From Amphiura filiformis (lineage: Eukaryota; Echinodermata; Ophiuroidea; Amphilepidida; Amphiuridae): a stretch of DNA of 64,000 bases. Position 1 is the stretch's first letter. Each line of letters starts with the position of its first letter. Shown here in pieces: positions 5,233 to 64,000 of the stretch. The stretch lies in NCBI RefSeq assembly GCF_039555335.1, contig NC_092628.1:80874315-80938314 (forward strand), written 5' to 3'. The translations under genes were made by a program, and so were the position numbers. The notes beneath the pieces are model-generated. The model was not told where the DNA came from. It saw nothing but the letters and a program-made list of their open reading frames with translations, and made no database searches.

Positions 5233-5304
5233 TCCTTGATAGCTCAGTTGGTAAGAGCACTGGCTAGATATCCAGGGGTCCCAGGTTCAAATCCTGGTCA
5301 AGGA
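5233..5304 (+). tRNA. tRNA-like sequence, anticodon arm one base short (likely pseudo-tRNA or SINE head)
   Basis: A perfect 7-bp acceptor stem (TCCTTGA with TCAAGGA), D stem GCTC/GAGC with an AGTTGGTAA loop, and T arm CCAGG-TTCAAAT-CCTGG. Pol III boxes A (TAGCTCAGTTGG) and B (GGTTCAAATCC) are intact. The anticodon arm CTGGCTAGATATCCAG is 16 nt instead of 17 and only four pairs form, so no anticodon can be assigned with confidence. It is followed by an A-run rather than a T-run terminator. It could be a decayed tRNA gene or the head of a tRNA-derived SINE. Confidence 0.6.
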
Positions 5305-5972
5305 TGAAAAAAAAAGTTCTTCCTTGCAATTAATAAAACCTTTTTTTTCCATGCAAAGTGAAAACCTGCTCCTAAATACATGTGTGTGTTAATTGTTTGC
5401 AGCTCAGATGTAGAGGAAATATATATAGGCCGTACATTTCCAAAATCACATGGTTTGAGAGTTGATTTGAGGCCTTTTGTCAAAAGATGGAAAGCTTTAT
5501 ATTTCTTTTAATTGAATTTGATGTTTTATAGATATGATGAGAGGTAAGATACAACAAAATTTAAAAAATTTGGTTGATGCTACATGTTTTCTGACAGTAC
5601 TGTTTTGTAAGGCTCATTCGCTGATCGCACGGTGGCCTCAAAAGGAGTTTCTGCCCGCAAAGTGTGTGCTGTGTGCACGTACACTTGTCAAACGATGCTT
5701 TAATTACTGTGTATGCATTGCAAAAGCCTTCTGGTACATTGCTAGAAAAGCGTGAGAAACAAAAACACACATTTTACGCATGCGTTTGCAGGGAGAACCT
5801 TGTTTTGGTACCAAGATGGTGAATCGGTGTGAAGGGTGAATAGGACCGCACTCATCAGAAACTCAATGGATTATGATGAGAGATATATACTTACTGGACT
5901 TTTCTCATCTTCTGATTTTGAATTATTATAGTTTTTATTTAAATCCCTACATCTGGGGCTGCAAATGAGAAG
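5305..5972. other. Non-coding stretch
   Basis: No gene supported. The open frames at 5534-5755 (+) and 5561-5770 (-) overlap, lack domain-like patterns and show no codon bias I can see. Confidence 0.5.
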
Positions 5973-15430: not shown

Positions 15431-15436
15431 TGTGCT

Positions 15437-24400: not shown

Positions 24401-27400
24401 TAAGATAACACACAGAATCAACACTGACTGGATTCTGCTATCTACCTAAGATAACACACAGAATCAACACTGACTGGATTCTGCTATCTACCTAAGATAA
24501 CACACAGAATCAACACTGACTGGATTCTGCTATCTACCTAAGATAACACACAGAATCAACACTGACTGAATTCTGCTATCTACCTAAGATAACACACAGA
24601 ATCAACACTGACTGAATCTGCTATCTACCTAAGATAACACACAAAATCAACACTGACTGAATTCTGCTATCTACCTAAGATAACACACAGAATCAACACT
24701 GACTGAATCTGCTATCTACCTAAGATAACACACAGAATCAACACTGACTGGATTCTGCTATCTACCTAAGATAACACACAGAATCAACACTGACTGAATC
24801 TGCTATCTACCTAAGATAACACACAGAATCAACACTGACTGAATTCTGCTATCTACCTAAGATAACACACAGAATCAACACTGACTGAATTCTGCCATCT
24901 ACCTAAGATAACACACAGAATCAACACTGACTGGATTCTGCTATCTACCTAAGATAACACACAGAATCAACACTGACTGAATTCTGCTATCTACCTAAGA
25001 TAACACACAGAATCAACACTGACTGAATTATGCTATCTACCTAAGATAACACACAGAATCAACACTGACTGAATCTGCTTTCTACCTAAGATAACACACA
25101 GTATCAACACTTACTGAATTCTGCTATCTACCTAAGATAACACACAGAATCAACACTGACTGAATTCCGCTATCTACCTAAGATAACACACAGAATCAAC
25201 ACTGACTGAATTCTGCTATCTACCTAAGATAACACACAGAATCAACACTGACTGAATTCTGCTATCTACCTAAGATAACACACAGAATCAACACTGACTG
25301 GATTCTGCTATCTACCTAAGATAACACACAGAATCAACACTGACTGAATTCCGCTATCTTCGTAAGATAACACACAGAATCAACACTGACTGAATCTGCT
25401 ATCTACCTAAGATAACACACAGAATCAACACTGACTGAATTCTGCTATCTATCTAAGATAACACACAGAATCAACACTGACTGAATTCTGCTATCTACCT
25501 AAGATAACACACAGAATCAACACTGACTGGATTCTGCTATCTACCTAAGATAACACACAGAATCAACACTGACTGAATTCTGCTATCTATCTAAGATAAC
25601 ACACAGAATCAACACTGACTGAATTCTGCTATCTACCTAAGATAACACACAGAATCAACACTGACTGGATTCTGCTATCTACCTAAGATAACACACAGAA
25701 TCAACACTGACTGAATTATGCTATCTACCTAAGATAACACACAGAATCAACACTGACTGGATTCTGCTATCTACCTAAGATAACACACAGAATCAACACT
25801 GACTGAATTCTGCTATCTACCTAAGATAACACACAGAATCAACACTGACTGGATTCTGCTATCTACCTAAGATGACACACAGAATCAACACTGACTTGAT
25901 TCTGCTATCTACCTAAGATAACACACAGAATCAACACTGACTGAATTATGCTATCTACCTAAGATAACACACAGAATCAACACTGACTGAATTCTGCTAT
26001 CTACCTAAGATAACACACAGAATCAACACTGACTGGATTCTGCTATCTACCTAAGATAACACACAGAATCAACACTGACTGGATTCTGCTATCTACCTAA
26101 GATAACACACAGAATCAACACTGACTGGATTCCGCTATCTACCTAAGATAACACACAGAATCAACACTGACTGAATTCCGCTATCTACCTAAGATAACAC
26201 ACAGAATCAACACTGACTGAATTCTGCTATCTACCTAAGATAACACACAGAATCAACACTGACTGGATTCTGCTATCTACCTAAGATAACACACAGAATC
26301 AACACTGACTGGATTCCGCTATCTACCTAAGATAACACACAGAATCAACACTGACTGAATTCCGCTATCTACCTAAGATAACACACAGAATCAACACTGA
26401 CTGAATTCTGCTATCTACCTAAGATAACACACAGAATCAACACTGACTTAATTATGCTATCTACCTAAGATAACACACAGAATCAACACTGACTGAATTC
26501 TGCTATCTACCTAAGATAACACACAGCATCAACACTGACTGAATTATGCTATCTACCTAAGATAACACACAGAATCAACACTGACTGGATTCTGCTATCT
26601 ACCTAAGATAACACACAGAATCAACACTGACTGAATTCTGCTATCTACCTAAGATAACACACAGAATCAACACTGACTGAATTCTGCTATCTACCTAATA
26701 TAACACACAGAATCAACACTGACTGAATCTGCTATCTACCTAAGATAACACACAGAATCAACACTGACTGAATTCTGCTATCTACCTAAGATAACACACA
26801 GAATCAACACTGACTGGATTCTGCTATCTACCTAAGATAACACACAGAATCAACACTGACTGAATTCTGCTATCTACCTAAGATAACACACAGAATCAAC
26901 ACTGACTGAATCTGCTATCTACCTAAGATAACACACAAAATCAACACTGACTGAATTCTGCTATCTACCTAAGATAACACACAGAATCAACACTGACTGA
27001 ATTCTACAATCTACCTGAGATAACACACAGAACCAACACTGACTGAATTCTACAATCTACCTAAGATAACACACAGAATCAACACTGACTGAATTCTGCT
27101 ATCTACCTAAGATAACACACAGAATCAACACTGACTGAATTCTGCTATCTACCCAAGATAACACACAGAATCAACACTGACTGAATTATGCTATCTACCT
27201 AAGATAACACACAGAATCAACACTGACTGGATTCTGCTATCTACCTAAGATAACACACAGAATCAACACTGACTGAATTCTGCTATCTACCTAAGATAAC
27301 ACACAGAATCAACACTGACTGGATTCTGCTATCTACCTAAGATAACACACAGAATCAACACTGACTTGATTCTGCTATCTACCTAAGATAACACACAGAA

Positions 27401-30400
27401 TCAACACTGACTGAATTATGCTATCTACCTAAGATAACACACAGAATCAACACTGACTGAATTCTGCTATCTACCTAAGATAACACACAGAATCAACACT
27501 GACTGGATTCTGCTATCTACCTAAGATAACACACAGAATCAACACTGACTGGATTCTGCTATCTACCTAAGATAACACACAGAATCAACACTGACTGAAT
27601 TCTGCTATCTACCTAAGATAACACACAGAATCAACACTGACTGGATTCTGCTATCTACCTAAGATAACACACAGAATCAACACTGACTGGATTCTGCTAT
27701 CTACCTAAGATAACACACAGAATCAACACTGACTGAATTCTGCTATCTACCTAAGATAACACACAGAATCAACACTGACTGAATTCTGCTATCTACCTAA
27801 GATAACACACAGAATCAACACTGACTGGGTTCTGCTATCTACCTAAGATAACACACAGAATCAACACTGACTGGATTCTGCTATCTACCTAAGATAACAC
27901 ACAGAATCAACACTGACTGAATCTGCTATCTACCTAAGATAACACACAGAATCAACACTGACTGGATTCTGCTATCTACCTAAGATAACACACAGAATCA
28001 ACACTGACTGGATTCTGCTATCTACCTAAGATAACACACAGAATCAACACTGACTGGATTCTGCTATCTACCTAAGATAACACACAGAATCAACACTGAC
28101 TGAATTCTGCTATCTACCTAAGATAACACACAGAATCAACACTGACTGAATCTGCTATCTACCTAAGATAACACACAAAATCAACACTGACTGAATTCTG
28201 CTATCTACCTAAGATAACACACAGAATCAACACTGACTGAATCTGCTATCTACCTAAGATAACACACAGAATCAACACTGACTGGATTCTGCTATCTACC
28301 TAAGATAACACACAGAATCAACACTGACTGAATCTGCTATCTACCTAAGATAACACACAGAATCAACACTGACTGAATTCTGCTATCTACCTAAGATAAC
28401 ACACAGAATCAACACTGACTGAATTCTGCCATCTACCTAAGATAACACACAGAATCAACACTGACTGGATTCTGCTATCTACCTAAGATAACACACAGAA
28501 TCAACACTGACTGAATTCTGCTATCTACCTAAGATAACACACAGAATCAACACTGACTGAATCTGCTTTCTACCTAAGATAACACACAGAATCAACACTG
28601 ACTGAATTCCGCTATCTACCTAAGATAACACACAGAATCAACACTGACTGAATTCTGCTATCTACCTAAGATAACACACAGTATCAACACTTACTGAATC
28701 TGCTTTCTACCTAAGATAACACACAGAATCAACACTGACTGAATTCCGCTATCTACCTAAGATAACACACAGAATCAACACTGACTGGATTCAGCTATCT
28801 ATCTAAGATAACACACAGAATCAACACTGACTGGATTCTGCTATCTACCTAAGATAACACACAGAATCAACACTTACTGAATTCTGCTATCTACCTGAGA
28901 TAACACACAGAATCAACACTGACTGAATTCTGCTATCTACCTAAGATAACACACAGAATCAACACTGACTGAATTCCGCTATCTACCTAAGATAACACAC
29001 AGAATCAACACTGACTGAATCTGCTTTCTACCTAAGATAACACACAGTATCAACACTTACTGAATTCTGCTATCTACCTAAGATAACACACAGAATCAAC
29101 ACTGACTGAATTCCGCTATCTACCTAAGATAACACACAGAATCAACACTGACTGAATTCTGCTATCTACCTAAGATAACACACAGAATCAACACTGACTG
29201 AATTCTGCTATCTACCTAAGATAACACACAGAATCAACACTGACTGGATTCTGCTATCTACCTAAGATAACACACAGAATCAACACTGACTGAATTCCGC
29301 TATCTACCTAAGATAACACACAGAATCAACACTGACTGAATCTGCTATCTACCTAAGATAACACACAGAATCAACACTGACTGAATTCTGCTATCTATCT
29401 AAGATAACACACAGAATCAACACTGACTGAATTCTGCTATCTACCTAAGATAACACACAGAATCAACACTGACTGGATTCTGCTATCTACCTAAGATAAC
29501 ACACAGAATCAACACTGACTGAATTCCGCTATCTACCTAAGATAACACACAGAATCAACACTGACTGAATCTGCTATCTACCTAAGATAACACACAGAAT
29601 CAACACTGACTGAATTATGCTATCTACCTAAGATAACACACAGAATCAACACTGACTGGATTCTGCTATCTACCTAAGATAACACACAGAATCAACACTG
29701 ACTGAATTCTGCTATCTACCTAAGATAACACACAGAATCAACACTGACTGGATTCTGCTATCTACCTAAGATAACACACAGAATCAACACTGACTTGATT
29801 CTGCTATCTACCTAAGATAACACACGAATCAACACTGACTGAATTATGCTATCTACCTAAAGATAACACACAGAATCAACACTGACTGAATTCTGCTATC
29901 TACCTAAGATAACACACAGAATCAACACTGACTGGATTCTGCTATCTACCTAAGATAACACACAGAATCAACACTGACTGGATTCTGCTATCTACCTAAG
30001 ATAACACACAGAATCAACACTGACTGAATTCTGCTATCTACCTAAGATAACACACAGAATCAACACTGACTGGATTCTGCTATCTACCTAAGATAACACA
30101 CAGAATCAACACTGACTGGATTCTGCAATCTACCTAAGATAACACACAGAATCAACACTGACTGGATTCTGCTATCTACCTAAGATAACACACAGAATCA
30201 ACACTGACTTGATTCTGCTATCTACCTAAGATAACACACGAATCAACACTGACTGAATTATGCTATCTACCTAAGATAACACACAGAATCAACACTGACT
30301 GAATTCTGCTATCTACCTAAGATAACACACAGAATCAACACTGACTGGATTCTGCTATCTACCTAAGATAACACACAGAATCAACACTGACTGGATTCTG

Positions 30401-30546
30401 CTATCTACCTAAGATAACACACAGAATCAACACTGACTGAATTCTGCTATCTACCTAAGATAACACACAGAATCAACACTGACTGGATTCTGCTATCTAC
30501 CTAAGATAACACACAGAATCAACACTGACTGGATTCTGCAATCTCA
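15437..30546. repeat. 15-kb satellite/minisatellite array, 46-bp unit, about 330 copies
   Basis: The unit is ATCAACACTGACTGAATTCT + GCTATCTACCTAAGATAACA + CACAGA (46 bp; 45-bp variants lack one T of AATTCT). Copies are extremely similar in the middle and degenerate at the left edge. Recurrent variants (TGGATTC, AATTCCGC, AATTATGC, TTGATTC, CTACAATCTACC, GATGACAC, GCATCAAC, CTTTCTACC) recur in fixed order. Blocks are repeated at offsets of about 505 bp (near 15.6/16.1 kb), 779 bp (18.75/19.53 kb), 2,247 bp (22.4-23.6 / 24.6-25.9 kb) and 8,252 bp (18.27/26.52 kb). Each unit holds TATCT-ACCTA-AGATA, a small inverted repeat. There are no spacers, so it is not a CRISPR array, and no long open frame exists. 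Confidence 0.95.
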
Positions 30547-35776: not shown

Positions 35777-36876
35777 TGATGGAATCCATTTGAAACTTAT
35801 TTGAAGATATAATCTTATTTGAAGATATATATAGGCCTACCACGTGACAAGCAAAAGCAGAAAACGTCCCATATTTTGGAATTTTATTTGCCTAAAAACA
35901 TTAATGTGTATTAATAGCGCTCAATTGTTGTTAATCCGACAATAATAAATGATAAATGCGCGTCTATATGGACAATACATTATATCGATTTTGACATGTG
36001 CTCGCACGGTGTCAGTACATTATCATGGTCAGTAAAATACTACTATAGAGGAACCTACCATTTTTCTTGTATACACGTTCGATGTTTTTATCAATTACAT
36101 AAAAAATCCATTTTAGACCCCAAATGTTTCTTCGGGAAATAAAAGATTAGAATACCATGAAAACGAAACAGTAATCTTTTGCCGGGTCTAATGTTATTTA
36201 TACATAGAATTTTTAACGTTTTTTCTATCCTTATTCTTGCTCAATTAAAAAATATTTTGGCGTATATAAAATTGAAATAAAATTCTCTGCCTCATAAACG
36301 ACCTCAAATATGCCACAATTGGGTATCACGAATAGTTATATATGATGTGCAGTTAATATTCATATTTTCTTTTATACAGAGGATGCTTCAGTTTTGACAG
36401 GAAAAATATTTTCTTGAAAACCCTCTCACTCGGTTATTTCAAAACAGTAACCACGCTTCCCTAGAATGTGCAATAATTTAGCATTAAAATTTTTCTTATT
36501 CTAACAGCAAGCGTTTCTAGAATGAATTATGGCGAAATGTGGTGTAATACGGTCCCTAATACTAAGTAGTCTAAACCTATCAATAATTTCTGCTCATGTT
36601 TATGTAACTGGTCAAGTGTATCGATCATCTTTTTATAATAATAGCGAACAATGTATACTAACGTCAGACATGGTCAAGTACTGAATAAGTTTGATATGCA
36701 TTGTACTGTTTGTAGTGGTTTGTGCTGGACCGGACTGCTCAGCTGGGTGCTTATGTGTTCACCAAAATGTCCATTTTGTGAAGTTGTAAGGACACAGAGT
36801 CATCACGCTTCCCTCTGAATTCCTCTAAACTTCACTATTTGTGGTATGGTATTTCATCAAAAGCTATCAAAACGCC
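35777..36876 (+). other. Upstream region of the GPCR gene
   Basis: No TATA box or other core promoter element could be placed with confidence and no upstream coding exon was found. The coding frame is open back to 36841 without an ATG, so the first ATG at 36877 is preferred. A 5' UTR exon could lie here. Confidence 0.4.
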
Positions 36877-37986
36877 ATGGCATTACCATCGTCGCTTCAT
36901 GACAACAATTCTAATGACTCACTTGTGTTTGGAGACAGCCCAGATGACGTTACCGAACCTAATGCGAAAGCGACCATCATCTTTATTGCTAGTTTGGCTT
37001 TGATTATGACTATCTTGGGAGGAAACGGACTGGTACTCGTACTTATTATCAAATTCCGTCGCCTAAGAACTGCTACAAATTATTTTATCATAGGAATGGC
37101 AAGTGCCGATTTCACCATCGGGATCACCCTCATATCAAACATTATTACTATCAATTTATATTCTCAGTTGCCAATATCAGCAATTGGATGTCTCTTGCTT
37201 CGGTGTACTGTTATATTTCCTTCTGTCATAAGTTGCTTGACTTTACTGTCTGTCAGCCTGGATCGTTATCTAAAAATTGTAATGCCACTGCGTTATCATG
37301 ACTTGATGTCTAAAAGAGTAGCAATGATGATCGTGGTGTCTATATACATATATGCAGCACTAACGACATATGGATTGCCACTTAGTATTGCAAATCAAAT
37401 TCACGAAGATTTAATCTGTCCAAGATTTGCTGCAGTTTTCAATCCAGTCTACCTACAATTTCTTATCTTTGGCAATATTTTGTTTCCGCTGTGTTTAATC
37501 TGCATAATATATGGACAAATCTTTCGCGTGGTGATTCAAAAGATACGAAAGGAAAGAAGGATCGTACCTCAACAGCAGCCCAGAGAGGGGCGCAACAATC
37601 TTGGTAATTTGCGACATATCTGGTTCAAGCGAGAACGTAGATCCATCAAAACACTGGTCATTCTATTGGGTCTGTGTATCTTTGGTTGGGTACCCATTTG
37701 CAGTGTGATACTTACAGATATTTACAACCCTTCACATGAAGTAAGACAAGATGTACGAAATATCGTCAGATATTTTCCTTTTATAAATAGTGCAGCCAAC
37801 CCAATTGTGTATAGCTTGCGTAGTGAACAGTTTCGTATGTATGCTCGGAAACTCTTTGGGATTTCTAAGAAAAAAACATTGAAACTAATCGAAACAACAC
37901 GGAACGATGCTACTGGTTATCCGCCTGCTGTGATCGACGTGCGTCAATTGTCAAGATTGTCAACAAACGCAGATGTACATGTATGA
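36877..37986 (+). CDS. Rhodopsin-class (class A) GPCR, orphan, adenosine/MECO-like
   Basis: The 369-residue protein has seven hydrophobic segments and an uninterrupted coding region. Start: ATG at 36877 in a good context (aacgccATGG). The N-terminus has sequons NNS and NDS. Landmarks: TM1 GGNGLVLVL with N50; ICL1 'LRTATNYF'; TM2 ASADF with D78; C105 at the top of TM3; DRY at 129-131 followed by LKIVMPLRYH; TM5 with P204 and Y212; ICL3 of about 38 residues, basic; TM6 FGWVPI (W271, P273); TM7 NSAANPIVYSLRSEQFR, with NPIVY at 308-312, then a basic helix 8. TM4 lacks the usual tryptophan. The ICL1 'LRTxTNYF', the DRY-to-PLRY spacing and the TM7 motif look most like adenosine and related MECO-cluster receptors, but I cannot name a ligand. 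It would signal through G proteins at the plasma membrane. Confidence 0.85.
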   Translation: MALPSSLHDNNSNDSLVFGDSPDDVTEPNAKATIIFIASLALIMTILGGNGLVLVLIIKFRRLRTATNYFIIGMASADFTIGITLISNIITINLYSQLPISAIGCLLLRCTVIFPSVISCLTLLSVSLDRYLKIVMPLRYHDLMSKRVAMMIVVSIYIYAALTTYGLPLSIANQIHEDLICPRFAAVFNPVYLQFLIFGNILFPLCLICIIYGQIFRVVIQKIRKERRIVPQQQPREGRNNLGNLRHIWFKRERRSIKTLVILLGLCIFGWVPICSVILTDIYNPSHEVRQDVRNIVRYFPFINSAANPIVYSLRSEQFRMYARKLFGISKKKTLKLIETTRNDATGYPPAVIDVRQLSRLSTNADVHV

Positions 37987-44507: not shown

Positions 44508-45333
44508 GGCATCTTGTTGAAGGGCATCAACACCGCCTGGGTTGAAGGAAAAATCCCCGAAGACTGGAGTAAAAGTCTATTAACCCCTGTATACAAAAAG
44601 GGCGACAGACTGGACCCAGCCAACTACAGAACTATTACCCTCCTGTCAATCCCGGTAAAAGTATTCTGTAGGATGTTTCTTAACCGAATACAACAGACTG
44701 TAGATAACCATCTGAGAGAGGAAAAGTGTGGGTTCAGGAGTTCCAGAGGCAGCTCAGATACAGTTTACAGTACGCCAAATCTTTGAAAAGGCTAAAAAAG
44801 ATGCATTCCAATACACTGGAATTTTATAGACTTCCAAGCAGCATTTGACACCATATGGACAGATGGAGGGAAGCCCTTTGGAAATGTCTGAGATCAGTAT
44901 ACCTCATTGCAAAAATGTATGAGCAATCCAAATGCTCAGTCGTGGTAAATGGAAAGATCACCGATTGCTTTGAAGTCCTCGTTGGTGTTAGACAGGAATG
45001 TCATCTCTCATCATGCCTCTTCAATCTAAATCTGGAGTTTGTCATGAAGGACGTCCAAAATCTAGGCTCAGGTGTGCAAATGGGTGACATCCGATATGCA
45101 GATGACACCACAATCATGGATATGGACTTTGAGAACCTGCAAATCTCCGCTAATGAATTGGAGAAAGCATGCAGCAGCTGGGGAATGAAAATTAACCCAA
45201 CAAAATGCAAGATCATATCTGACGATCCAAGAGATATGATGCTGAACCAGATGCCATTTTAGTAAATAACTTCGTCTTTCTGGGTAGTAGTGTGCCCTCA
45301 GTAGAAGAGGATATTAAACGTCGCATAAACCTT
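44508..45333 (+). pseudogene. LINE reverse transcriptase fragment, broken
   Basis: Two frames encode parts of a non-LTR retrotransposon RT. 44514-44786 reads 'WVEGKIPEDWSKSLLTPVYK', 'KGDRLDPANYRTITLLS' and 'FRSSRGSSDTV', the finger and palm start. 44855-45262 reads 'YEQSKCSVVVNGKITDCFEV', 'VGVRQECHLSSCLF' and the catalytic RYADDT box, then 'MKINPTKCK'. A frameshift and stops separate the two. Downstream 'FLGSSVPSVEEDIKRRI' continues in another frame to about 45330. The RVGVRQxCxLSxxLF and YADDT motifs are diagnostic of RTs. It lacks endonuclease and ends, so it is a dead internal fragment. It lies exactly between the two inverted PIN-like copies. The clade was not determined. Confidence 0.85.
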
Positions 45334-51046: not shown

Positions 51047-51548
51047 TCATAGTGATACAACAATTAGCCCCCAATATTGGCTTTCATTTGAACCGTTATT
51101 TGTTAAACTGCGATTTTTACTTTTTGAGAAATCAATGAACGTATCAAAAAAACTTTTGGCAAATCGATTTAAAATTGCCCGTACCGTTAAGTCAATGGAT
51201 TCTGCATTTCTGATGTGTTTAGGCAGGTTGTTCCAGATGCGGGGTCCATAGCAGGAAAAAAGACCGGTTGAATGTTGATTTCTTTGTTCAATGAATAGTG
51301 TTGTTGATGATGTTGTGGAGCGAAGACGTCTGCGACCAGTTTGTTCATGAAGCATATCAGAAATGTAATCAGGAGTTTGTTGGTGACAAGATTTGTAAAC
51401 GAGGACCACGATTTTGAAAGCAATACGTTGCTTAATGGGTATCCAGTGCAGGTCAATGCCAAGATCATTTGTGATTGAGATTCTACACCATTTATAAATA
51501 CGTCGACTGATTTGCCTGTCATATGGGGACCGGGAGATTATTCCATGG
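51047..51548 (-). pseudogene. LINE C-terminal region (post-RT domain), 5'-truncated
   Basis: Minus strand, upstream part: 'SPYDRQISRRIYKWCRISIT' then 'NDLGIDLHWIPIKQRIAFKI', continuing in the same frame to 'VVLVYKSCHQQTPDYISDML' and 'GPRIWNNLPKHIRNAESIDL'. The LHWxPxxxRIxFK...VYK and 'xRxWNxLPxxIRN' signatures are typical of the thumb and C-terminal region of CR1/L2-type or related non-LTR retrotransposon ORF2. The frame is open for about 165 codons and ends with a stop at 51047. The RT core (YADD) is not in the window on this side. It is a dead or 5'-truncated copy. Confidence 0.8.
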
Positions 51549-51604
51549 AGTTACTGCTCTTTGGTTGTATGAGTTAGTTCAATGTTATGTTAAGGCCTTG
51601 AATG

Positions 51605-51681
51605 TTATCTATGCCCGTGTTAACGGGGCATAGATATTGTATTTGTTGCGTTTAGTCTTCTGCTTCTCCTCCTCCTCCTCC
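51605..51681 (+). mobile_element. Helentron-like element H1, 5' end only
   Basis: A 5' terminal hairpin and polypyrimidine tract, interrupted by H2 after CTCCTCC. The rest of H1 is not in the window. Confidence 0.7.
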
Positions 51682-51732
51682 TTATCTATGCCCGTGGAAC
51701 GGTGGCATAGATATTGTATTTGTTGTGTTTAG
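51682..51732 (+). mobile_element. Helentron-like element H2, 5' end only
   Basis: The 5' end of the variant TTATCTATGCCCGTGGAACG, cut by H3 after TGTGTTTAG. Its remainder is beyond the window. Confidence 0.7.
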
Positions 51733-51794
51733 TTATCTATGCCCGTGTTAACGGGGCATAGATATTCTGCTTATGCTCTTTATTCTTCTCCTCC

Positions 51795-53466
51795 TTATCT
51801 ATGCCCGTGGAACGGTGGCATAGATATTGTATTTGTTGTGTTTAGTCTTCTCCTCCTCCTTCTCCTCCTCCTCCTCCTCCTTCTTCTTAAGACCACTTCT
51901 TTGCACTCCTCTAGCTCAAGAACCAAAGAAGCCTCGGGGCCCATACTTGGTACAATGATGGCCCATGACCCCAAGATACATCCTAGGGTACCCCCCGACC
52001 CCAAAGGTCAAAGGTCATGGGCTACAGGGGGCAATATGTGTAAAATTTCAAACAGCTCTAGCTCAAAAACTCTAGCGCCCTCAGGGTTCATACTTGGTAC
52101 AATGATGGCCTATGACCCTAGAAGTATGCTATGCTAGCCACAACCCCAGAGGTCAAAGTTCATATGCTTTAAAAAGCAAAATAGGTACGACCGGTTAACA
52201 CAGTGTATCGCAATAGGTAGCATTTTGGTAGCTACCTGTATTTGCAATGATGAAGGCTTCAAATATACGTCAAGACGTACAATGGGGTTAAGAGGTTATC
52301 CGCTTAAAGGGACACAATAGTTTGGGATTAAAGGGTATTCTCCAGTCTGGTGGTGTTTCAGAGAGTGAGGGTCTGATGGAGTATAAGAGAGTGATGGCTT
52401 GGTGGGGTATTAGAGAGAGTTTGGGCCAGCCTGGTGGTGTTTTAGAGCGAGTGAGTGTCTGGTGGAGTATAAGAGAGAGTGAAGGCTTGGTGGGTATTAA
52501 AGAGAGTATGGGTCAGCCTGTTGGTATTTTAGAGCGAGTGAGTGTCTGGTGGATTATAAGAGAGAGAGGGTCTGGTGAGGTATTAGAGAGAGTGTGCGCC
52601 AATCTGGGGTGTTTTAGAGCTAGTGAGTGTCTGGTGGAGTGTAAGAGAGAGTGATGGCTGGGTGGGGTATTAGAGAGAGTTTGGGTCAGCCTGATGGTGT
52701 TTTAGAGCGAGTGAGTGTCTGGTGGAGTATAAGAGAGAGTGAAGGCTTGGTGGGGTTTTAGAGAGAGTATGGGTCAGCCTGTTGGTGTTTTAGAGCGAGT
52801 GAGTGTCTGGTGGAGTATAAGAGAGAGTGATGGCTGGGTGGGGTATTAGAGAGAGTTTGGGTCAGCCTGGTGGTGTTTTAGAGCGAGTGAGTGTCTGGTG
52901 GAGTATAAGCGAGAGTGAAGGCTTGGTGGGGTATTAGAAAGAGTATGGGTCAGCCTGTTGGTGTTTTAGAGCAAGTGAGTGTCTGGTGGATTATAAGAGA
53001 GAGTGAGGGTCTGGTGAGGTATTAGAGAGAGTGTGCGCCAATCTGGGGGTGTTTTACAGCTAGTGAGTGTCTGGTGGAGTATAAGAGAGAGTGATGGCTG
53101 GGTGGGGTATTAGAGAGAGTTTGGGTCAGCCTGGTGGTGTTTTAGAGCGAGTGAGTGTCTGGTGGAGTATAAGAGAGAGTGATGGCTGGGCGGGTATTAG
53201 AGAGAGTTTGGGTCAGCCTGGTGGTGTTTTAGAGCGAGTGAGTGTCTGGTGGGGTATAAATGAGAGTGAAGGCTTGGTAGGGTATTAGAGAGAGTGTGGG
53301 CCAGTCTAGGGTTATGAGCATTACATGTATATCAAATGAAAGTTTAAAACAAGGGGTTTCACATGGTGCTCACCAAGTTTTCGTTTGTAAATAGGGGAAG
53401 GGGGTTAGGTGTGGTCATCACGGGCATAGATATTCGTGTTTGGTCAAACACAACCGTGGTTTCTAG
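51795..53466 (+). mobile_element. Helentron-like element H4
   Basis: Complete from TTATCTATGCCCGTGGAACG to ...GTGGTTTCTAG. It holds a (CTC/CTT) tract, the DR1-bearing body (DR1 at 52005-52017) and an ~87-bp minisatellite. Its sequence CATATGCTTTAAAAAGC is the uninterrupted counterpart of the H6 site that carries the 1.6-kb insertion. Confidence 0.8.
52330..53312 (+). repeat. ~87-bp minisatellite in H4, about 11 copies
   Basis: The unit includes 'gttttagagcgagtgagtgt', 'ctggtggagtataagagaga' and 'ggggtattagagagagt'. The unit is near a multiple of three, so long open frames (52322-52654, 53091-53288) arise from the repeat and are not taken as genes. Confidence 0.9.
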
Positions 53467-56447
53467 TTATCTATGCCCGTGTTAACGGGGCATAGATATT
53501 CTGCTTATGCTCTTTATTCTTCTCCTCCTCTTTCTTCTTCTTCTTCTCTTCCTCAAGATCAGTCCTTTGCACTCCTCTAGCTCAAGAACTAAAGTAGCCT
53601 CGGGGCCCATACTTGGTATAATGATGGCCCATGACCCCTAGAAACATCCTTTGGTACACCTGACCCCAGAGGTCAAAGGTCATGGGCTACAGGGGGCAAT
53701 ATGTGTAAAATTTGAAACATCTCTAGCTCAAGAACTATAGCGCCCTCAGGGTTCATACTTAGTATAATTATGACCCATGACCCTAAAGGTATTATATATT
53801 AGCAATGACCCCAGAGGTCAAAGGTCATAGGCTACATGGAGCAATATGTGTATATTTAGGAATGTCACCATCTCTACGTAAGAGGTACATAGGATGTCAA
53901 CTTTGAAGGTATATAGGATGTTAGCCTTGTGCTCATCGCGCTATTGCCAAGGATAATAAAATCAGGAGGTGACAATAGCTCATTAGCATGTGTCCAATTA
54001 ATTCTTATGTATATAGGTATTGTTATAACGCTATTCCAGAGGGAGTATGTAAATTAAATGGAACAGCCATTAAAGGGACACTCCGTTTTGGGATTAAAGG
54101 GGTATTAAGATTTTTTAATTTTTTTTATTGTTTTATTTTTTTTGTATGGAACATGTTTGTTGATTTATTTAAGGAGGAGCGCCCTCAAGCGTTTACACAG
54201 CAAATGCAATTAAAGGGGCATTTCTTGATTTTCAATTTAATATTTTAGTCAGTATACTGATAGCCCTTTTAGAATCAAACATATTACGGGGTGTCAGGTG
54301 GATTAAAGGTGTCATGATAAGTTAAGGGCAGAGGGGTGTTAGGGTGATGGAATAGCCATTAAAGGGACACTCCGTTTTGGGATTAAAGGGGTATTCAGAT
54401 TTTTTATTTTTTTATTTTTAATTTTTTTGTATGGAACATGTTTGTTGATTTATTTAAGGAGGAGCGCCCTCAAGCGTTTACACAGCAAATGCAATTAAAG
54501 GGGCATTTCTTGATTTTCAATTTAATATTTTAGTCAGTATACTGATAGCCCTTTTAGAATCAAACATATTACGGGGTGTCAGGTGGATTAAAGGTGTCAT
54601 GATAAGTTAAGGGCCGAGGGGGTGTTAGGGTGATGGAATAGCCATTAAAGGGACACTCCGTTTTGGGATTAAAGGGGTATTCAGATTTTTTTATTTTTTT
54701 ATTTTTTTTGTATGGAACATGTTTGTTGATTTATTTAAGGGTGAGCGCCCTCAAGCGTTTACACAGCAAATGCAATTAAAGGGCATTTCTTGATTTTCAA
54801 TTTAATATTTTAGTCAGTATACTGATAGCCCTTTTAGAATCAAACATATTACGGGATGTCAGGGTGGATTAAAGGTGTCATGGTAGGTTAAGGGCCGTGG
54901 GAGTGTTAGGATGATGGAATAGACATTAAAGGGACACTCCGTTTTGGGATTAAAGGGATATTCAGATTTTTTTATTTTTTTATTTTTTTTGTATGGAACA
55001 TGTTTGTTGATTTATTTAAGGAGGAGCGCCCTCAAGCGTTTACACAGCAAATGCAATTAAAGGGGCATTTCTTGATTTTCAATTTAATAAGCCCTTTTAG
55101 AATACGGGGGGAATGTCACCATCTCTACGTAAGAGGTACATAGGATGTCAACTTTGAAGGTATATAGGATGTTAGCCTTGTGCTCATCGCGCTATTGCCA
55201 AGGATAATAAAATCAGGAGGTGACAATAGCTCATTAGCATGTGTCCAATTAATTCTTATGTATATAGGTATTGTTATAACGCTATTCCAGAGGGAGTATG
55301 TAAATTAAATGGAACAGCCATTAAAGGGACACTCCGTTTTGGGATTAAAGGGGTATTAAGATTTTTTAATTTTTTTTATTGTTTTATTTTTTTTGTATGG
55401 AACATGTTTGTTGATTTATTTAAGGAGGAGCGCCCTCAAGCGTTTACACAGCAAATGCAATTAAAGGGGCATTTCTTGATTTTCAATTTAATATTTTAGT
55501 CAGTATACTGATAGCCCTTTTAGAATCAAACATATTACGGGGTGTCAGGTGGATTAAAGGTGTCATGATAAGTTAAGGGCAGAGGGGGTGTTAGGGTGAT
55601 GGAATAGCCATTAAAGGGACACTCCGTTTTGGGATTAAAGGGGTATTCAGATTTTTTTATTTTTTATTTTTTTAAATTTTTTTGTATGGAACATGTTTGT
55701 TGATTTATTTAAGGAGGAGGGCCCTCAAGCGTTTACACAGCAAATGCAATTAAAGGGCATTTCTTGATTTTCAATTTAATATTTTAGTCAGTATACTGAT
55801 AGCCCTTTTAGAATCAAACATATTACGGGGTGTCAGGTGGATTAAAGGTGTCATGATAAGTTAAGGGCCGAGGGGGTGTTAGGGTGATGGAATAGCCATT
55901 AAAGGGACACTCCGTTTTGGGATTAAAGGGGTATTCAGATTTTTTGATTTTTTTGTATGGAACATGTTTGTTGATTTATTTAAGGGTGAGCGCCCTCAAG
56001 CGTTTACACAGCAAATGCAATTAAAGGGGCATTTCTTGATTTTCAATTTAATATTTTAGTCAGTATACTGATAGCCCTTTTAGAATCAAACATATTACGG
56101 GATGTCAGGGTGGATTAAAGGTGTCATGGTAGGTTAAGGGCCGTGGGAGTGTTAGGATGATGGAATAGACATTAAAGGGACACTCCGTTTTGGGATTAAA
56201 GGGATATTCAGATTTTTTTATTTTTTTATTTTTTTTGTATGGAACATGTTTGTTGATTTATTTAAGGAGGAGCGCCCTCAAGCGTTTACACAGCAAATGC
56301 AATTAAAGGGGCATTTCTTGATTTTCAATTTAATAAGCCCTTTTAGAATACGGGGTGTCATGATGGATTAAGAGTGTCATGGTGGGTAAGGGTGGGAAGC
56401 ACGGGCATAGATATTCGTGTTTGGTCAAACACAACTGTGCCATCTAG
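53467..56447 (+). mobile_element. Helentron-like element H5
   Basis: It starts directly at the CTAG end of H4 and ends GTGCCATCTAG. The body has two DR1 motifs (53670-53682, 53815-53827), then ~290-bp tandem units, and a 1,251-bp internal duplication. H4 and H5 are head-to-tail with no intervening base that can be assigned to flank. Confidence 0.8.
53862..56360 (+). repeat. ~290-bp tandem units with 1,251-bp higher-order duplication
   Basis: Units carry 'gccattaaagggacactccg', 'gtatggaacatgtttgttga', 'gcgccctcaagcgtttacac' and 'gtcagtatactgatagccct'; about eight to nine lie here. The block from 'gaatgtcaccatctctacgt' at 53862 recurs at about 55110, including two identical 86-codon frames (53988, 55239), so the repeat has been amplified at two scales. 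The frames are repeat by-products. Confidence 0.9.
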
Positions 56448-56944
56448 TCTTTCTTCTTCTTCTTCTCCTCCTCAAGATCAGTCCTTTGCACTCCTCTAGC
56501 TCAAGAACTAAAGTAGCCTCGGGGCCCATACTTGGTATAATGATGGCCCATGACCCCTAGAAACATCCTTTGGTACACCTGACCCCAGAGGTCAAAGGTC
56601 ATGGGCTACAGGGGGCAATATGTGTAAAATTTGAAACATCTCTAGCTCAAGAACTATAGCGCCCTCAGGGTTCATACTTAGTATAATTATGACCCATGAC
56701 CCCTAAATGTATTATATGCTAGCAATGACCCCAGAGGTCAAAGTTCATAGGCTACAGGGAGCAATATGTGTATATTTAGGAATTTAGGTACATAGGATGT
56801 CAACCTTGAAGGTATATAGGATGTTAGCCTTGTGCTCATCACGCTATTGCCAAGGATAATTAAATCAGGATGTGACAATAGCTTATTAGCATGTGTCCAA
56901 TTGATTCTTATGTATATATATGTATTGTTATAGAGCTATTCCAG

Positions 56945-58230
56945 ATGGAGTATGCAAATTAAATGGAACAGCCATTAAAGGGACACTCCGTTTTGAGATT
57001 AAAGGGGTATTCAGATTTTTTTTTTTTTGATTTTTTTTTGCATGGAACATGTTTATTGATTTATTTAAGGAGGAGCGCCCTCAATGTGATGGAATAGCCA
57101 TTAAAGGGACACTCCGTTTTGGGATTAAAGGGGTATTCAGATTTTTTATTTTTTATTTTTTAAATTTTTTGTATGGAACATGTTTGTTGATTTATTTAAG
57201 GAAGAGCGCCCTCAAGCGTTTACACAGCAAATGCAATTAAAGGGGCATTTCTTGATTTTCAATTTAATATTTTAGTCAGTATACTGATAGCCCTTTTAGA
57301 ATCAAACATATTACGGGATATCAGGTGGATTAAAGGTGTCATGATAAGTTAAGGGCCGAGGGGGTGTTAGGGTGATGGAATAGCCATTAAAGGGACACTC
57401 CGTTTTGAGATTAAAAGGGTATTCAGATTTTTTGATTTTTTGATTTTTTGATTTTTTTTTTGGAAGGGAACATGTTTGCTGATTTATTTAAGGAGGAGCG
57501 CCCTCAAGCGTTTACACAGCAAATGCAATTAAAGGGGCATTTCTTGATTTTCAATTTAATATTTTAGTCAGTATACTGATAGCCCTTTTAGAATCAAACA
57601 TATTACGGGGTGTCAGGTGGATTAAAGGTGTCATGATAGGTTAAGGGCCGAGGGAGTGTTAGGGTGATGGAATAGCCATTAAAGGGACACTCCGTTTTGG
57701 GATTAAAGGGGTATTCAGATTTTTTTATTTTTTATTTTTTTAAATTTTTTTGTATGGAACATGTTTGTTGATTTATTTAAGGAAGAGCGCCCTCAAGCGT
57801 TTACACAGCAAATGCGGTTAACGGGCATTTCTTGATTTTCAATTTAATATTTTAGTCAGTATACTGATAGCCCTTTTAGAATCAAACATATTACGGGATA
57901 TCAGGTGGATTAAAGGTGTCATGATAAGTTAAGGGCCGAGGGGTGTTAGGGTGATGGAATAGCCATTAAAGGGACACTCCGTTTTGAGATTAAAGGGTGT
58001 TTAGATTTTTTTTTAAATTATTTTTTGTATGGAACATGTTTGTTGATTTATTTAAGGAGGAGCGCCCTCAAGCGTTTACACAGCAAATGCAATTAAAGGG
58101 GCATTCCTTGATTTTCAATTTAATATTTTAGTCAGTATACTGATAGCCCTTTTAGAATCAAACATATTACAGGGAGTCAGGTGGATTAAAGGTGTCATGG
58201 TAGGTTAAGGGCTGAGGGAGTGTTGGGGTG
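56945..58230 (+). repeat. ~290-bp tandem units in H3
   Basis: About five copies of the same unit as in H5, with variable poly-T/TTTGATTT tracts and one truncated unit near 57050-57085. Confidence 0.9.
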
Positions 58231-58657
58231 AAAGTCATCACGGGCATAGATATTCGTGTTTGGTCAAACACAGCTGTGCCATCTAGTTATCTATGCCCGT
58301 GTAACGGGGCATAGATATTGTATTTGTTGTGTTTAGTCTTCGGCTTCTCCTTCTCCTTCGCCTTCTTCTCCTCCTTCTCAAGATCAGTCCTTTGCACCCC
58401 TCTAGCTCAGGAACTAAAGTAGCCCCTGGGCCCATACTTGGTACAATGATGGCCCATGACCCCTAGATACATCCTAGGGTACCCTCGACCCCAAAGGTCA
58501 AAGGTCATGGGCTACAGGGGGCAATATGTGTAAAATTTCAAACAGCTCTAGCTCAACTACTATAGCGCCCTCAGGGTTCATACTTGGAACAATGATGGCC
58601 TATGACCCTAGAAGTATGCTATGCTAGCCGCAACCCCAGAGGTCAAAGTTCATATGC

Positions 58658-60263
58658 TTTAAGAGGGCGCACCACCAAATCACTCCACGATTTATGTACC
58701 AGTGAAATTCGGTTAAAATAGTCCACCGCTTATTTGAGCTTGTTGCGGCTTTATTTTCAAAACGTATAGTCAAAATTTGCCCATTTTCAGCTCATTTGCT
58801 TCCGACAAGTGTCTACATGACAAAATATGAGAAAAAGTCCCAATGTTTTATTTCAGAGATGGAGTTTTGGCGCGAATTTGGACAATGTCCGGTTTCAAAA
58901 ATTGAGTGATTTTTTAGGGTTAAATTTGCACGTTTTTTCTTTGCGGCCAAATAGCAAAAAAAGTAGATGGTCACCAATATATTCTGTTAATAGAATAATA
59001 TTCTACACGTGATAAGCTTTAATTTGATACCAAACTTTTAATCTATATTACGTTTTTGCAGTGACAAAACGCCATCCAAACGTGCGTATTTCCTGTGTAA
59101 TCCAATGGCGCAATCATTGGTGGTGCGCTCTCTTATAAGCGGCTTTTAAAGTGTGTTTGCTATGTACGCGCATTTTTACAAAAAAACATAGAATAAGGGC
59201 AGAAGTCTTAATAAATCATTTTATTTCATTCGCAAATGCTTGAAATAACATTTGTGATTAGTTTTAGCAAAAATGTTTTTTTTATTTATCCAAAAATACA
59301 GGTCTCTGACGTTAAGAAAAGCATCAAAAATCTACTTATATGAGCGCTTTTGCTATAGATTTATACCAAATCAGAATAACGTATAAAACTTGTATTTTTG
59401 CTTAAAATGCCAAAATCACTAGTTTGAAGACAGAGAACGAGAGGGGGGGGGGGGTAATTTGACTCAATTATGTAAATAGGCCTATATTTAAGGTATTAAA
59501 AATATTTGTACACACATAAAGTACTTTTCACAATTAAAAAAATTAAAATTAAAGAGTATGTTTTTGCATAAAACATTCAATTTTATGTCCAACCTCTTCA
59601 AACTTCTGCATGTTGATAAACACGTTGAAATTTGGGTCTTTTGGTGATTCGGAACTGATATTTAGAGCACCATTTCTTCCGAACGGAAAGTCGTAGAGTG
59701 ATGAAATCTTGGGAAATGACTAGAAACTGTCTCTAGTTTACTTAAAAATGTAAAAAATTGGATTTTGATAACTAATGACGTTTATAAGAGGGCGCACCAC
59801 CAAATCACTCCACGATTTATGTACCAGTGAAATTCGGTTAAAATAGTCCACCGCTTATTTGAGCTTGTTGCGGCTTTATTTTCAAAACGTATAGTCAAAA
59901 TTTGCCCATTTTCAGCTCATTTGCTTCCGACAAGTGTCTACATGACAAAATATGAGAACAAGTCCCAATGTTTTATTTCAGAGATGGAGTTTTGGCGCGA
60001 ATTTGGACAATGTCCGGTTTCAAAAATTGAGTGATTTTTTAGGGTTAAATTTGCACGTTTTTTCTTTGCGGCCAAATAGCAAAAAAAGTAGATGGTCACC
60101 AATATATTCTGTTAATAGAATAATATTCTACACGTGATAAGCTTTAATTTGATACCAAACTTTTAATCTATATTACGTTTTTGCAGTGACAAAACGCCAT
60201 CCAAACGTGCGTATTTCCCTGTGTAATCCAATGGCGCAATCATTGGTGGTGCGCTCTCTTTAA
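58658..60263. mobile_element. 1.6-kb element with ~470-bp direct terminal repeats
   Basis: Terminal repeats 58663-59132 and 59788-60258 are almost identical (differences include gaaaaagtcc/gaacaagtcc and one inserted C). Each starts GAGGGCGCACCACCAAATC and ends ATTGGTGGTGCGCTCTC, itself an inverted repeat. They enclose 655 bp flanked by TTATAA on both inner sides. The outer flanks are TTTAA on each side, and the empty site is visible in H4. It could be a miniature LTR-like element or two TTAA-type MITEs acting as a composite. No coding frame; the 61-codon frames in each repeat are identical by duplication. Confidence 0.8.
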
Positions 60264-60419
60264 AAAGCAAAATAGGTACGACTGGTTAACACAGTGTATC
60301 GCAATAGGTAGCATTTTGGTAGCTACCTGTATTTGCAATGATGAAGGCTTCAAATATACGTCAAGACGTACAATGGGGTTAAGAGGTTAACCGCTTAAAG
60401 GGACACAATGTTTTGGGAT

Positions 60420-61655
60420 TAAAGGGGTATTCTCCAGTCTGGTGGTGTTTCAGAGAGTGAGGGTCTGATGGAGTATAAGAGAGTGATGGCTTGGTGGGGT
60501 ATTAGAGAGAGTTTGGGCCAGCCTGGTGGTGTTTTAGAGCGAGTGAGTGTCTGGTGGATTATAAGAGAGAGTGAGGGTCTGGTGAGGTATTAGAGAGAGT
60601 GTGCGCCAATCTGGGGGTGTTTTAGAGCTAGTGAGTGTCTGGTGGAGTATAAGAGAGAGTGATGGCTGGGTGGGGTATTAGAGAGAGTTGGGGTCAGCCT
60701 GGTGGTGTTTTAGAGCGAGTGAGTGTCTGGTGGAGTATAAGAGAGAGTGAAGGCTTGGTGGGTATTAGAGAGAGTATGGGTTAGCCTGTTGGTGTTTTAG
60801 AGCGAGTGAGTGTCTGGTGGAGTATAAGAGAGAGTGAAGGCTTGGTGGGGTATTAGAGAGAGTATGGGTCAGCCTGTTGGTGTTTTAGAGCGAGTGAGTG
60901 TCTGGTGGAGTATAAGAGAGTGATGGCTGGGTGGGGTATTAGAGAGAATTTGGGTCAGCCTGGTGGTGTTTTAGAGCGAGTGAGTGTCTGGTGGCGTATA
61001 AGAGAGAGTGAGGGTCTGGTGGGGTATTAGAAAGAGTGTGTGCCAGTCTGGTGGTGTTTTAGAGCTAGTGAGTGTCTGGTGGAGTATAAGAGAGAGTGAT
61101 GGCTTGGTGGGCTATTAGAGAGAGTTTGGGTCAGCCTGGTGGTGTTTTAGAGCGAGTGAGTGTCTGGTGGAGTATAAGAGAGTGGGGGTCTGGTGGGGTA
61201 TTAGAGAGAATGTGGTCCAGTCTGGGGGTGTTTTAGAGAGATTGATGGTCTGATGAGGTATAAGAGAGAGTGAAGGCTTGGTAGGGTATTAGAGAGAGTA
61301 TGGGTCAGCCTGGTGGTGTTTTAGAGAGAGTGAGTGTATAGTGGAGTATAACAGAGAGTGAAGGCTTGGTGGGGTATTAGAGAGAGTGGGTCCAGCCTGT
61401 TGGTGTTTTAGAGCGTGTGAGTGTCTGGTGGAGTATAAGAGAGAGTGGGGGTCTGGTGGGGCATTAGAGAGAGTATGGGTCAGCCTGATGGTGTTTTAGA
61501 GCGAGTGAGTGTCTGGTGGAGTATAAGAGAGAGTGAGGGTCTGGTGGGGTATTAGAGAGAGTGTGGTCCAGTCTGGTGGTGTTTTAGAGCGAGTGAGTGT
61601 CTGGTGGAGTATAAGAGAGTGATGGTCTGGTGGGGTGTTAGAGAGAGAGTGTGGG
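60420..61655 (+). repeat. ~87-bp minisatellite in H6, about 14 copies
   Basis: The same unit as 52330-53312, with more varied copies (for example 'gagattgatggtctgatgag'). Confidence 0.9.
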
Positions 61656-61704
61656 CCACAGGCATAGATATTCGTGTTTGTTCAAACACAACTGTGGTTT
61701 CTAG

Positions 61705-61768
61705 TTATCTATGCCCGTGTAACGGGGCATAGATATTGTATTTGTTGTGTTTAGTCTTCGGCTTCTCC
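61705..61768 (+). mobile_element. Helentron-like element H7, 5' end only
   Basis: A 5' hairpin of the GTGTAACGGGGC variant then GTGTTTAGTCTTCGGCTTCTCC, cut by H8. The remainder may lie beyond the window. Confidence 0.7.
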
Positions 61769-62963
61769 TTATCTATGCCCGTGCTAACGGGGCATAGATA
61801 TTCTGCTTATGCTCTTTATTCTTCTCCTCCTCTTTCTTCTTCTTCTTCTTCTCCTTCTCAAGACGCTTCCTTTGCACTCCTCTAGCTCAAGAACTAAAGT
61901 AGCCTCGGGGCCCATACTTTGTATAATGATGGCCCATGACCCCTAGATGCATCCTAGGGTACCCCAGACCCCAAAGGTCAAAGGTCATGGGCTACAGGGG
62001 GCAATATGTGTAAAATTTGAAACATCTCTAGCTCAAGAACTATAGCGCCCTCAGGGTTCATACTTAGTATAATTATGACCCATGACCCCTAAAAGTATTA
62101 TATGTTAGCAGTGACCCCAGAGGTCAAAGGTCATAGGCTACAGGGAGCAATATGTGTATATTTAGGAATGTCACCATCTCTACGTAAGAGGTATATAGGA
62201 TGTCAACCTTGAAGGTATATAGGATGTTAGCCTTGTGCTCATCGCGCTATTGCCAAGGATACTTAAATCAGGATGTGACAATAGCTTATTAGCATGTGTC
62301 CAATTGATTCTTATGTAAATAGGTATTGTTATAAAGCTATTCCAGATGGAGTATGTAAATTCAATGGAACAGCCATTAAAGGACACTCCGTTTTAGGATT
62401 AAAGGGGTATTCAGATTTTTTGATTTTTTTTTTTTGATTTTTTTTTTGCATGGAATATGTTTATTGATTTATTTAAGGAGGAGCGCCCTCAAGCGTTTAC
62501 ACAGCAAATGCAATTAAAGGTGCATTCCTTGTTTTTCAAGTTAATATTTTAATATTTTAGTCAGTATACTGATAGCCCTTTTAGAATCAAAAATATTACA
62601 GAGTGTCAGGGTGGATTAAAGGTGTCATGGTAAGTTAAGGGCTGAGGGGGTGATGGAACAGCCATTAAAGGGACAATCCGTTTTGGAATTAAAGGGTATT
62701 TAGATTTTTTTGATTTTTTTTTTTGATTTTTTGTTTGGAACATGTTTGTTGCATTATTTAAGGAGGAGCGCCCTCAAGCGTTTACACAGCAAATGCAATT
62801 AAAGGGGTATTATTTGATTTTTAATTAATTAATTTTAATTTTTTGTTGTTGGTATACTGATAGCCCTTTTAGAATACGGGGTGTCATGATGGATTAAGAG
62901 TGTTAGGGTGGGAAACACGGGCATAGATATTCGTGTTTGGTCAAACACAACTGTGCCATCTAG
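61769..62963 (+). mobile_element. Helentron-like element H8
   Basis: A complete, short (about 1.2 kb) copy: 5' hairpin, polypyrimidine tract, body with DR1 motifs at 61975-61987 and 62121-62133, two ~290-bp units and the end GTGCCATCTAG. Confidence 0.8.
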
Positions 62964-64000
62964 TTATCTATGCCCGTGCTAACGGGGCATAGATATTCTG
63001 CTTATGCTCTTTATTCTTCTCCTCCTCTTTCTTCTTCTTCTTCTTCTCCTTCTCAAGACGCTTCCTTTGCACTCCTCTAGCTCAAGAACTAAAGTAGCCT
63101 CAGGGCCCATACTTTGTATAATGATGGCCCATGACCCTAGATGCATCCTAGGGTACCCCCCCCGACCCCAAAGGTCAAAGGTCATGGGCTACAGGGGGCA
63201 ATATGTGTAAAATTTGAAACATCTCTAGCTCAAGAACTATAGCGCCCTCAGGGTTCATACTTAGTATAATTATGACCCATGACCCCTAAAAGTATTATAT
63301 GTTAGCAGTGACCCCAGAGGTCAAAGGTCATAGGCTACAGGGAGCAATATGTGTATATTTAGGAATGTCACCATCTCTACGTAAGAGGTATATAGGATGT
63401 CAACCTTGAAGGTATATAGGATGTTAGCCTTGTGCTCATCGCGCTATTGCCAAGGATACTTAAATCAGGATGTGACAATAGCTTATTAGCATGTGTCCAA
63501 TTGATTCTTATGTAAATAGGTATTGTTATAAAGCTATTCCAGATGGAGTATGTAAATTCAATGGAACAGCCATTAAAGGGACACTCGGTTTTAGGATTAA
63601 AGGGGTATTCAGATTTTTGATTTTTTTTTGATTTTTTTTTTGCATGGAATATGTTTATTGATTTATTTAAGGAGGAGCGCCCTCAAGCGTTTACACAGCA
63701 AATGCAATTAAAGGTGCATTCCTTGTTTTTCAAGTTAATATTTTAATATTTTAGTCAGTATACTGATAGCCCTTTTAGAATCAAAAATATTACAGAGTGT
63801 CAGGGTGGATTAAAGGTGTCATGGTAAGTTAAGGGCCGAGGGGGTGATGGAACAGCCATTAAAGGGACAATCCGTTTTGGAATTAAAGGAGTATTTAGAT
63901 TTTTTTTAATTTTTTTATTTTTTGATTTTTTGTTTGGAACATGTTTGTTGCATTATTTAAGGAGGAGCGCCCTCAAGCGTTTACACAGCAAATGCAATTA
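62964..64000 (+). mobile_element. Helentron-like element H9, continues past the window
   Basis: It starts at the CTAG end of H8 and is nearly identical to H8 in its first kilobase, including two DR1 motifs (63172-63184, 63318-63330). The 3' end is outside the window. Confidence 0.8.

Follow-up and report, generated by a model that had tools for sequence, protein, structure and literature searches.

A head-to-tail, partly nested array of HINE-like rolling-circle transposon copies in the brittle star Amphiura filiformis

The final 12.4 kb of a 64-kb stretch of the Amphiura filiformis genome (contig NC_092628.1, positions 80,874,315 to 80,938,314; the whole stretch of 64,000 nucleotides is called the window, and its own numbering is used below) holds an array of elements whose ends resemble those of Helentrons, a group of rolling-circle transposons. 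The 15-mer TTATCTATGCCCGTG, which marks the 5' ends, was found in nine exact copies in a search of both strands, all on the + strand and all within this final part. When up to 3 mismatches were allowed, 16 matches were found on both strands, where 100 shuffles gave 1.29 on average. Besides the nine 5' ends, these comprise the five 3' subterminal repeats (− strand, one or two mismatches) and two matches with 3 mismatches each, at 13769 and 45602, the latter at chance level. The 3' motif, consisting of a 16-nt palindrome, 11 nt, CTAG and T, occurs in five copies (four exact, one with a loop change) and in none of 100 shuffles. An earlier note on this DNA had described at least nine 5' ends and five 3' ends in a head-to-tail array, and a hairpin followed exactly 11 nt later by CTAG/T (the slash marks the joining point); both descriptions hold at the positions given and far above chance. 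Copies of the element in the opposite orientation were absent from both-strand searches of the window, and a blastn comparison of 51605-64000 with 1-51604 (low-complexity filter on) yielded no match at E 1e-3. The features are as follows, with copies numbered H1 to H9 by their 5' ends and assigned to two subfamilies, A and B, described below.

51605-51681, + strand: H1, a 77-nt 5' end fragment of subfamily A type with the exact 15-mer, inverted copy and pyrimidine tract, cut at CTCC/T
51682-51732, + strand: H2, a 51-nt 5' end fragment identical to H4 positions 1-51 and cut at TTTAG/T
51733-51794, + strand: H3, left part, 62 nt, subfamily B, rejoining at 56448
51783-51794, + strand: left edge of the target in the H3 pyrimidine tract, TTCTTCTCCTCC/TCTTTCTTC, with the right edge from 56448
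51795-53466, + strand: H4, a complete subfamily A copy of 1672 bp with a central array of 88-bp repeats
53419-53466, + strand: 3' end module of H4, with the CACGGGCATAGATA subterminal inverted repeat, palindrome GTGTTTGGTCAAACAC, 11 nt and CTAG
53467-56447, + strand: H5, a complete subfamily B copy of 2981 bp that abuts H4 and has an internal tandem duplication
56448-58286, + strand: right part of H3, with CTAG at its end; without the H4 and H5 insert, the whole of H3 measures 1901 bp
58287-61704, + strand: H6, a complete subfamily A copy of 3418 bp with a foreign insert at about 58663-60258
61705-61768, + strand: H7, a 64-nt 5' end fragment identical to H6 positions 1-64 and cut at CTCC/T
61769-62963, + strand: H8, a complete subfamily B copy of 1195 bp
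62964-64000, + strand: H9, a subfamily B copy, sister of H8, cut by the window edge
51605, 51682, 51733, 51795, 53467, 58287, 61705, 61769 and 62964, + strand: exact 5' ends with TTATCTATGCCCGTG
53466 (H4), 56447 (H5), 58286 (H3), 61704 (H6) and 62963 (H8), + strand: CTAG 3' ends

The order of modules from 5' to 3' is the 5' subterminal inverted repeat (subTIR) TATCTATGCCCGTG, an inverted copy of it, a pyrimidine tract, a ~146-bp repeat in about two copies (as reported by a tandem repeat finder for H5, H3 and H8), a central array, the 3' subTIR, a palindrome and CTAG. Both ends and their spacing are invariant in 9/9 5' ends and 5/5 3' ends. The inverted copy of the 5' subTIR was aligned in all nine 5' ends, and a 5' hairpin was predicted for each of the six ends folded (DNA parameters, −9.4 to −11.2 kcal/mol). 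At the other terminus, the complement of the 5' subTIR, CACGGGCATAGATA, starts 48 nt and stops 34 nt before the 3' end; it is exact in four of the five copies and has one mismatch in H6. The first 14 nt of the 3' module are the reverse complement of the 5' end, with one mismatch in H6. The 48-nt 3' module of H4 recurs with its end at 56447, 58286, 61704 and 62963, and the mean column identity over the five copies is 96%. The palindrome GTGTTTGGTCAAACAC (GTGTTTGTTCAAACAC in H6) lies 15 nt from the 3' end in all five, and its stem was predicted in each of them. The pyrimidine tract is 38-43 nt long in four of the five elements examined and is split into 16 and 19 nt in H6; in these five elements (H6 taken without its foreign insert), all pyrimidine runs of at least 15 nt were located at +51 to +94. 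An extra stem between columns 1-5 and 36-40 of the 3' module was also considered and rejected: all copies pair, as do 369 of 500 shuffles, and no two-sided change was seen, leaving covariation unsupported. Seven stop-to-stop frames of at least 75 amino acids overlap 51605-64000, and the longest, of 134 amino acids, which was the one scanned among these seven, had no Pfam match at E 0.001.

Judged by their sequences, the two subfamilies have common ends and roughly the first 370 bp in common, and carry unrelated central tandem repeats. Specifically, the central array consists of 88-bp repeats in subfamily A (H4 and H6) and of ~280-bp repeats in subfamily B (H3 and H5), and H8 and H9 were placed in subfamily B by similarity. 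Copies of A and B are 84.7-87.6% alike over the first 360 nt (84.7% for H4 and H5, 87.0% for H3 and H6), whereas their centres had no similarity at E 1e-20, with at most four matches kept per pair. Within subfamily B, H8 and H9 are 99.2% identical over 1028 aligned positions (98.1% over 1042 by BLAST, gaps counted), H3 and H5 are 96.9% identical over 583 aligned positions, and either of the former pair is 94.8-95.3% identical to either of the latter in the first 600 nt. Within subfamily A, H4 and H6 are 94.6% identical over 557 aligned positions. Note that H5 contains an internal tandem duplication of 1.25 kb with 98.5% identity (53859-56355).

Four exact CTAG/TTATC junctions are present in the array, namely H4-H5 (53466/53467), H3-H6 (58286/58287), H6-H7 (61704/61705) and H8-H9 (62963/62964), so that H5, H6, H7 and H9 start at such junctions. 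The pairs H4-H5, H3-H6 and H8-H9 had been described as directly abutting complete copies; all three joins are exact, although H9 is incomplete and leaves the window. The left part of H3 stops at 51794 (...TTCTTCTCCTCC), and after the 3' end of H5 the sequence resumes at 56448 with TCTTTCTTCTTC. When joined, these two flanks read as in H5, H8 and H9, which are uninterrupted there, and show no multi-base loss or duplication; H4 and H5 are thus inserted within H3, at a C/T site. A start at TTATC without duplication and a start at TATC with a duplicated T fit this target equally well. If the first T is counted as host DNA, the filled sites have the form T-element-T on 9/9 left and 5/5 right sides, and the lone empty site is C/TC. 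A plain preference for TT or for T runs was tried as an explanation and set aside, because H3 offers 296 TT sites and T runs of up to 13 nt, yet was hit at C/TC in the tract, in what is one event only. The earlier note had read an insertion order in which H1 contains H2, H2 contains H3, and H3 contains H4 and H5. The last step is plain from both flanks, whereas H1-H2 and H2-H3 have left flanks only; since no right halves of H1, H2 or H7 occur in the window, we infer these two steps, as well as the nesting of H8 in H7. Within the window, short 5' ends of abortive or chimeric origin would give an identical picture.

The four points at which a 5' end is interrupted are +77 (H1), +51 (H2), +62 (H3) and +64 (H7), all of them inside the pyrimidine tract or on its border. 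We calculated the share of + strand N/T sites of the host copy that falls in +51 to +94, using H4 as a stand-in for H1 and H2, H3 itself, and H6 without its foreign insert for H7; the shares were 4.3%, 4.3%, 3.2% and 3.7%, with a product of 2.1e-6. Four random + strand N/T sites fell within one 27-nt span in 12 of 1,000,000 draws, a statistic that is post hoc and presumes that H1, H2 and H7 are truly interrupted, so it serves as a guide and not as a test. For the H3 event taken alone, the share of 3.2% is not strong. Because the tract is all pyrimidine, N/T sites would lie on one strand only, and the same head-to-tail orientation would be forced on later copies. The four offsets fall within the 31-85 nt range of the 5' duplications in Fusarium, a very distant host (PMC5148889). 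Of all parts of the finding, this clustering within the 5' pyrimidine tract is documented least; among the matches listed in a literature search, no title dealt with it. A further idea, speculative and on balance doubtful, is that the pyrimidine tract inside the 5' hairpin acts as a built-in landing pad or stop site, with nesting at about +30 to +90 being general for the Helitron2 group.

Taken together, we consider it probable (about 0.72) that the array consists of HINE-type copies of two subfamilies, of which later ones landed in or against earlier ones. By analogy with the family, a Rep/helicase supplied from elsewhere would nick the 5' end (TTATC...) and peel off one strand, the peeling would stop at the 3' palindrome and CTAG, and the strand would be joined ahead of a T. 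Each copy would supply fresh sites, at its own CTAG/T end and in its pyrimidine tract (about +51 to +94), and subsequent copies would land within or against it. H1, H2 and H7 were probably interrupted in the same way as H3, and H8-H9 is probably a read-through dimer of one template or a local duplication. If the nesting is true, the sequence past the H8/H9 group should contain CTAG followed by TTCTCCTTCGCC-like sequence (the rest of H7), later CTAG/TCTTC (the rest of H2), then the rest of H1, and then host DNA that continues the flank of 51604. Several points weigh against this explanation. Only one nesting, that of H3, has both flanks within the window, and no right-hand remainder of H1, H2 or H7 was seen up to the window end (64000). 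The single proven target is C/TC, compared with the TT dinucleotide reported for Helentrons, and a one-bp duplication of T at H3 is indistinguishable from none. Furthermore, Rep/helicase models had no match in the 10 frames scanned of the 13 in the window of at least 120 amino acids.

The strongest competitor, which we regard as possible at odds well short of even, takes H1, H2 and H7 as parts of chimeric units with multiple 5' ends and one 3' end, which arose a single time through self-insertion and afterwards moved whole, or as abortive copies that stopped just past the 5' hairpin. The 5' hairpin itself holds a copy of the 3' subterminal repeat, and in Fusarium, copies that repeat their first 31, 65, 73 or 85 nt at different places have been attributed to transposition (PMC5148889); the lack in the window of right remainders of H1, H2 and H7 is also in keeping with it. 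The stop of H2, TTTAG/T, resembles CTAG/T, and the possibility that the subfamily A 5' piece is a decayed 3' end was examined by aligning it with the H4 3' end. This alignment was equalled by 99 of 5000 shuffles, a weak lead only, whereas the same alignment in subfamily B was equalled by 4143 of 5000. On the other hand, H3, with a similar 62-nt 5' piece, has its remainder at 56448, and the cut points lie at differing offsets.

The distinction between subfamilies bears on how neighbouring copies were joined. In H4-H5 and in H3-H6 the two neighbours come from different subfamilies, which excludes read-through of a single monomer circle; these pairs need separate insertions or a composite unit that had formed earlier and moved as such. 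The only pair with the look of a same-template dimer is H8-H9, and in view of the near identity of its two copies it may be either a true dimer or the result of local duplication. The earlier suggestion of read-through or re-insertion at the same point can therefore be separated in part by subfamily, but the insertions share no single point, as they comprise four CTAG/T junctions and four varied offsets. An origin of the array mainly from several rolling-circle rounds, with the product of circle read-through inserted in one event as proposed for plant tandem Helitrons, is unlikely. The near identity of H8 and H9, the identical first 64 nt of H6 and H7, and plant arrays that combine many 5' ends with just one 3' end (PMC12628747) accord with it. 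However, besides the mixed neighbours H4-H5 and H3-H6, one pair lies inside another element, and a 3' end of its own is retained by H8 and by each of the four complete or rejoined copies that precede it. Still less probable is unequal crossing-over between copies in the manner of a satellite; the H5 duplication implies that unequal exchange or slippage acts here and such exchange could account for H8-H9 too, but it would not readily yield exact CTAG/TTATC junctions across subfamilies or the clean interruption of H3.

Returning to the explanation by successive insertions, the structural features tested fit an assignment of the copies to non-autonomous rolling-circle transposons of the Helentron/Helitron2 group, HINE type, as far as sequence features can tell. 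The same assignment had been proposed earlier; subTIRs, hairpins, the palindrome, tandem repeats and the lack of coding capacity bear it out, while the TT target is unconfirmed. Canonical Helitrons (Helitron1) are a very improbable identity, since the 3' hairpin 11 nt ahead of CTAG agrees with the CTRR rule but the 5' end is TTATC/TATC rather than TC, the copies have both subterminal inverted repeats and a 5' hairpin, and the single proven target is C/T rather than A/T. The 15-mer had no match in the full text of the literature searched. The exact 3' end and shared 5' repeat patterns had no match in viral_contigs, nor had the exact 5' hairpin pattern in genome_contigs, collections without animal genomes, so these negatives carry little weight.

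In published accounts, HINEs have subTIRs, a 3' palindrome, microsatellites or tandem repeats and insertion in T-rich sequence or TT, and occur in clusters and tandem arrays; in mite HINEs the 3' subTIR lies ~38-60 bp and the palindrome 8-35 bp from the 3' end (PMC4067079). The present copies resemble HINE/DINE-1 elements in having subTIRs at both ends (12-15 bp in mite, 13 bp in DINE-1), a 5' inverted copy, a 3' palindrome, microsatellites or tandem repeats, no coding capacity and clustering, but differ in ending in CTAG and in the proven target C/T instead of TT; the proto-Helentron of Phytophthora infestans has a 5' TT and a 3' CTAG (PMC4067079). The oyster Cg_HINE elements have the same order of subTIR, inverted repeat, microsatellite, central satellite-like repeats, subTIR and palindrome, and their group 2 likewise combines related flanks with unrelated central repeats, a likeness of architecture; in contrast, their microsatellite motifs are mostly of 4 nt, whereas the array has a CTT/CTC pyrimidine tract (PMC7492417). 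FoHeli of Fusarium, of Helitron2 type, likewise has terminal inverted repeats that are asymmetric, inserts into itself and carries additional 5' ends of 31-85 nt, but it is fungal, coding elements of ~5-11 kb have been described for it, and its reported targets are different (PMC5148889).

Tandem Helitron arrays of plant genomes are reportedly the subject of Xiong et al. 2016. A review covers tandem Helitron arrays in which 5' ends are numerous, as well as dimers that arise through a preference for certain insertion sites (PMC12628747). According to this review, 5' ends outnumber 3' ends in a head-to-tail layout in plant arrays, as here, but the copies there are truncated; in the present array, complete copies from both subfamilies are interleaved, and one pair sits inside another copy. 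Published work on the Helentron/Helitron2 group already records self-insertion, copies in tandem and several short 5' ends per element (PMC5148889, PMC4067079). The kind of element and its habit of self-insertion are thus already known, and the array is a clean and readable new example, not a new kind of element. Its value is that of a readable fossil record of the pile-up of rolling-circle transposons that carry satellite-like repeats: at one locus, re-insertion (adjacent copies of unlike subfamily) can be told apart from what may be a same-template dimer (H8-H9), and the array indicates the 5' pyrimidine tract as a target, which is testable genome-wide.

The foreign insert in H6 (58663-60258) consists of two direct copies of a short element, 99.6% identical over 476 aligned bp, around ~650 bp of other sequence. 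The repeated element has inverted ends (GAGGGCGCACCACCAA...); TTTAA is repeated at the outer flanks, as a target duplication would be, and TTATAA is found at both inner flanks. Elsewhere in the window, ordinary genes are represented by a frame with matches to the TMEM132 C-terminal and sixth domains (2677-4122), a tRNA (5233-5305) and a single-frame rhodopsin-like receptor (36829-37983). Beside H1, a − strand frame at 51050-51550, for which Pfam gave no match, resembles what we take to be the end of a LINE protein, and a reverse transcriptase fragment (Pfam RVT_1) lies at 44849-45259. Finally, a 15-kb array at 15435-30544 is made up of 329 copies of a 46-bp satellite with 96% matches and a strong skew in base content, with a GC skew of about −0.4.

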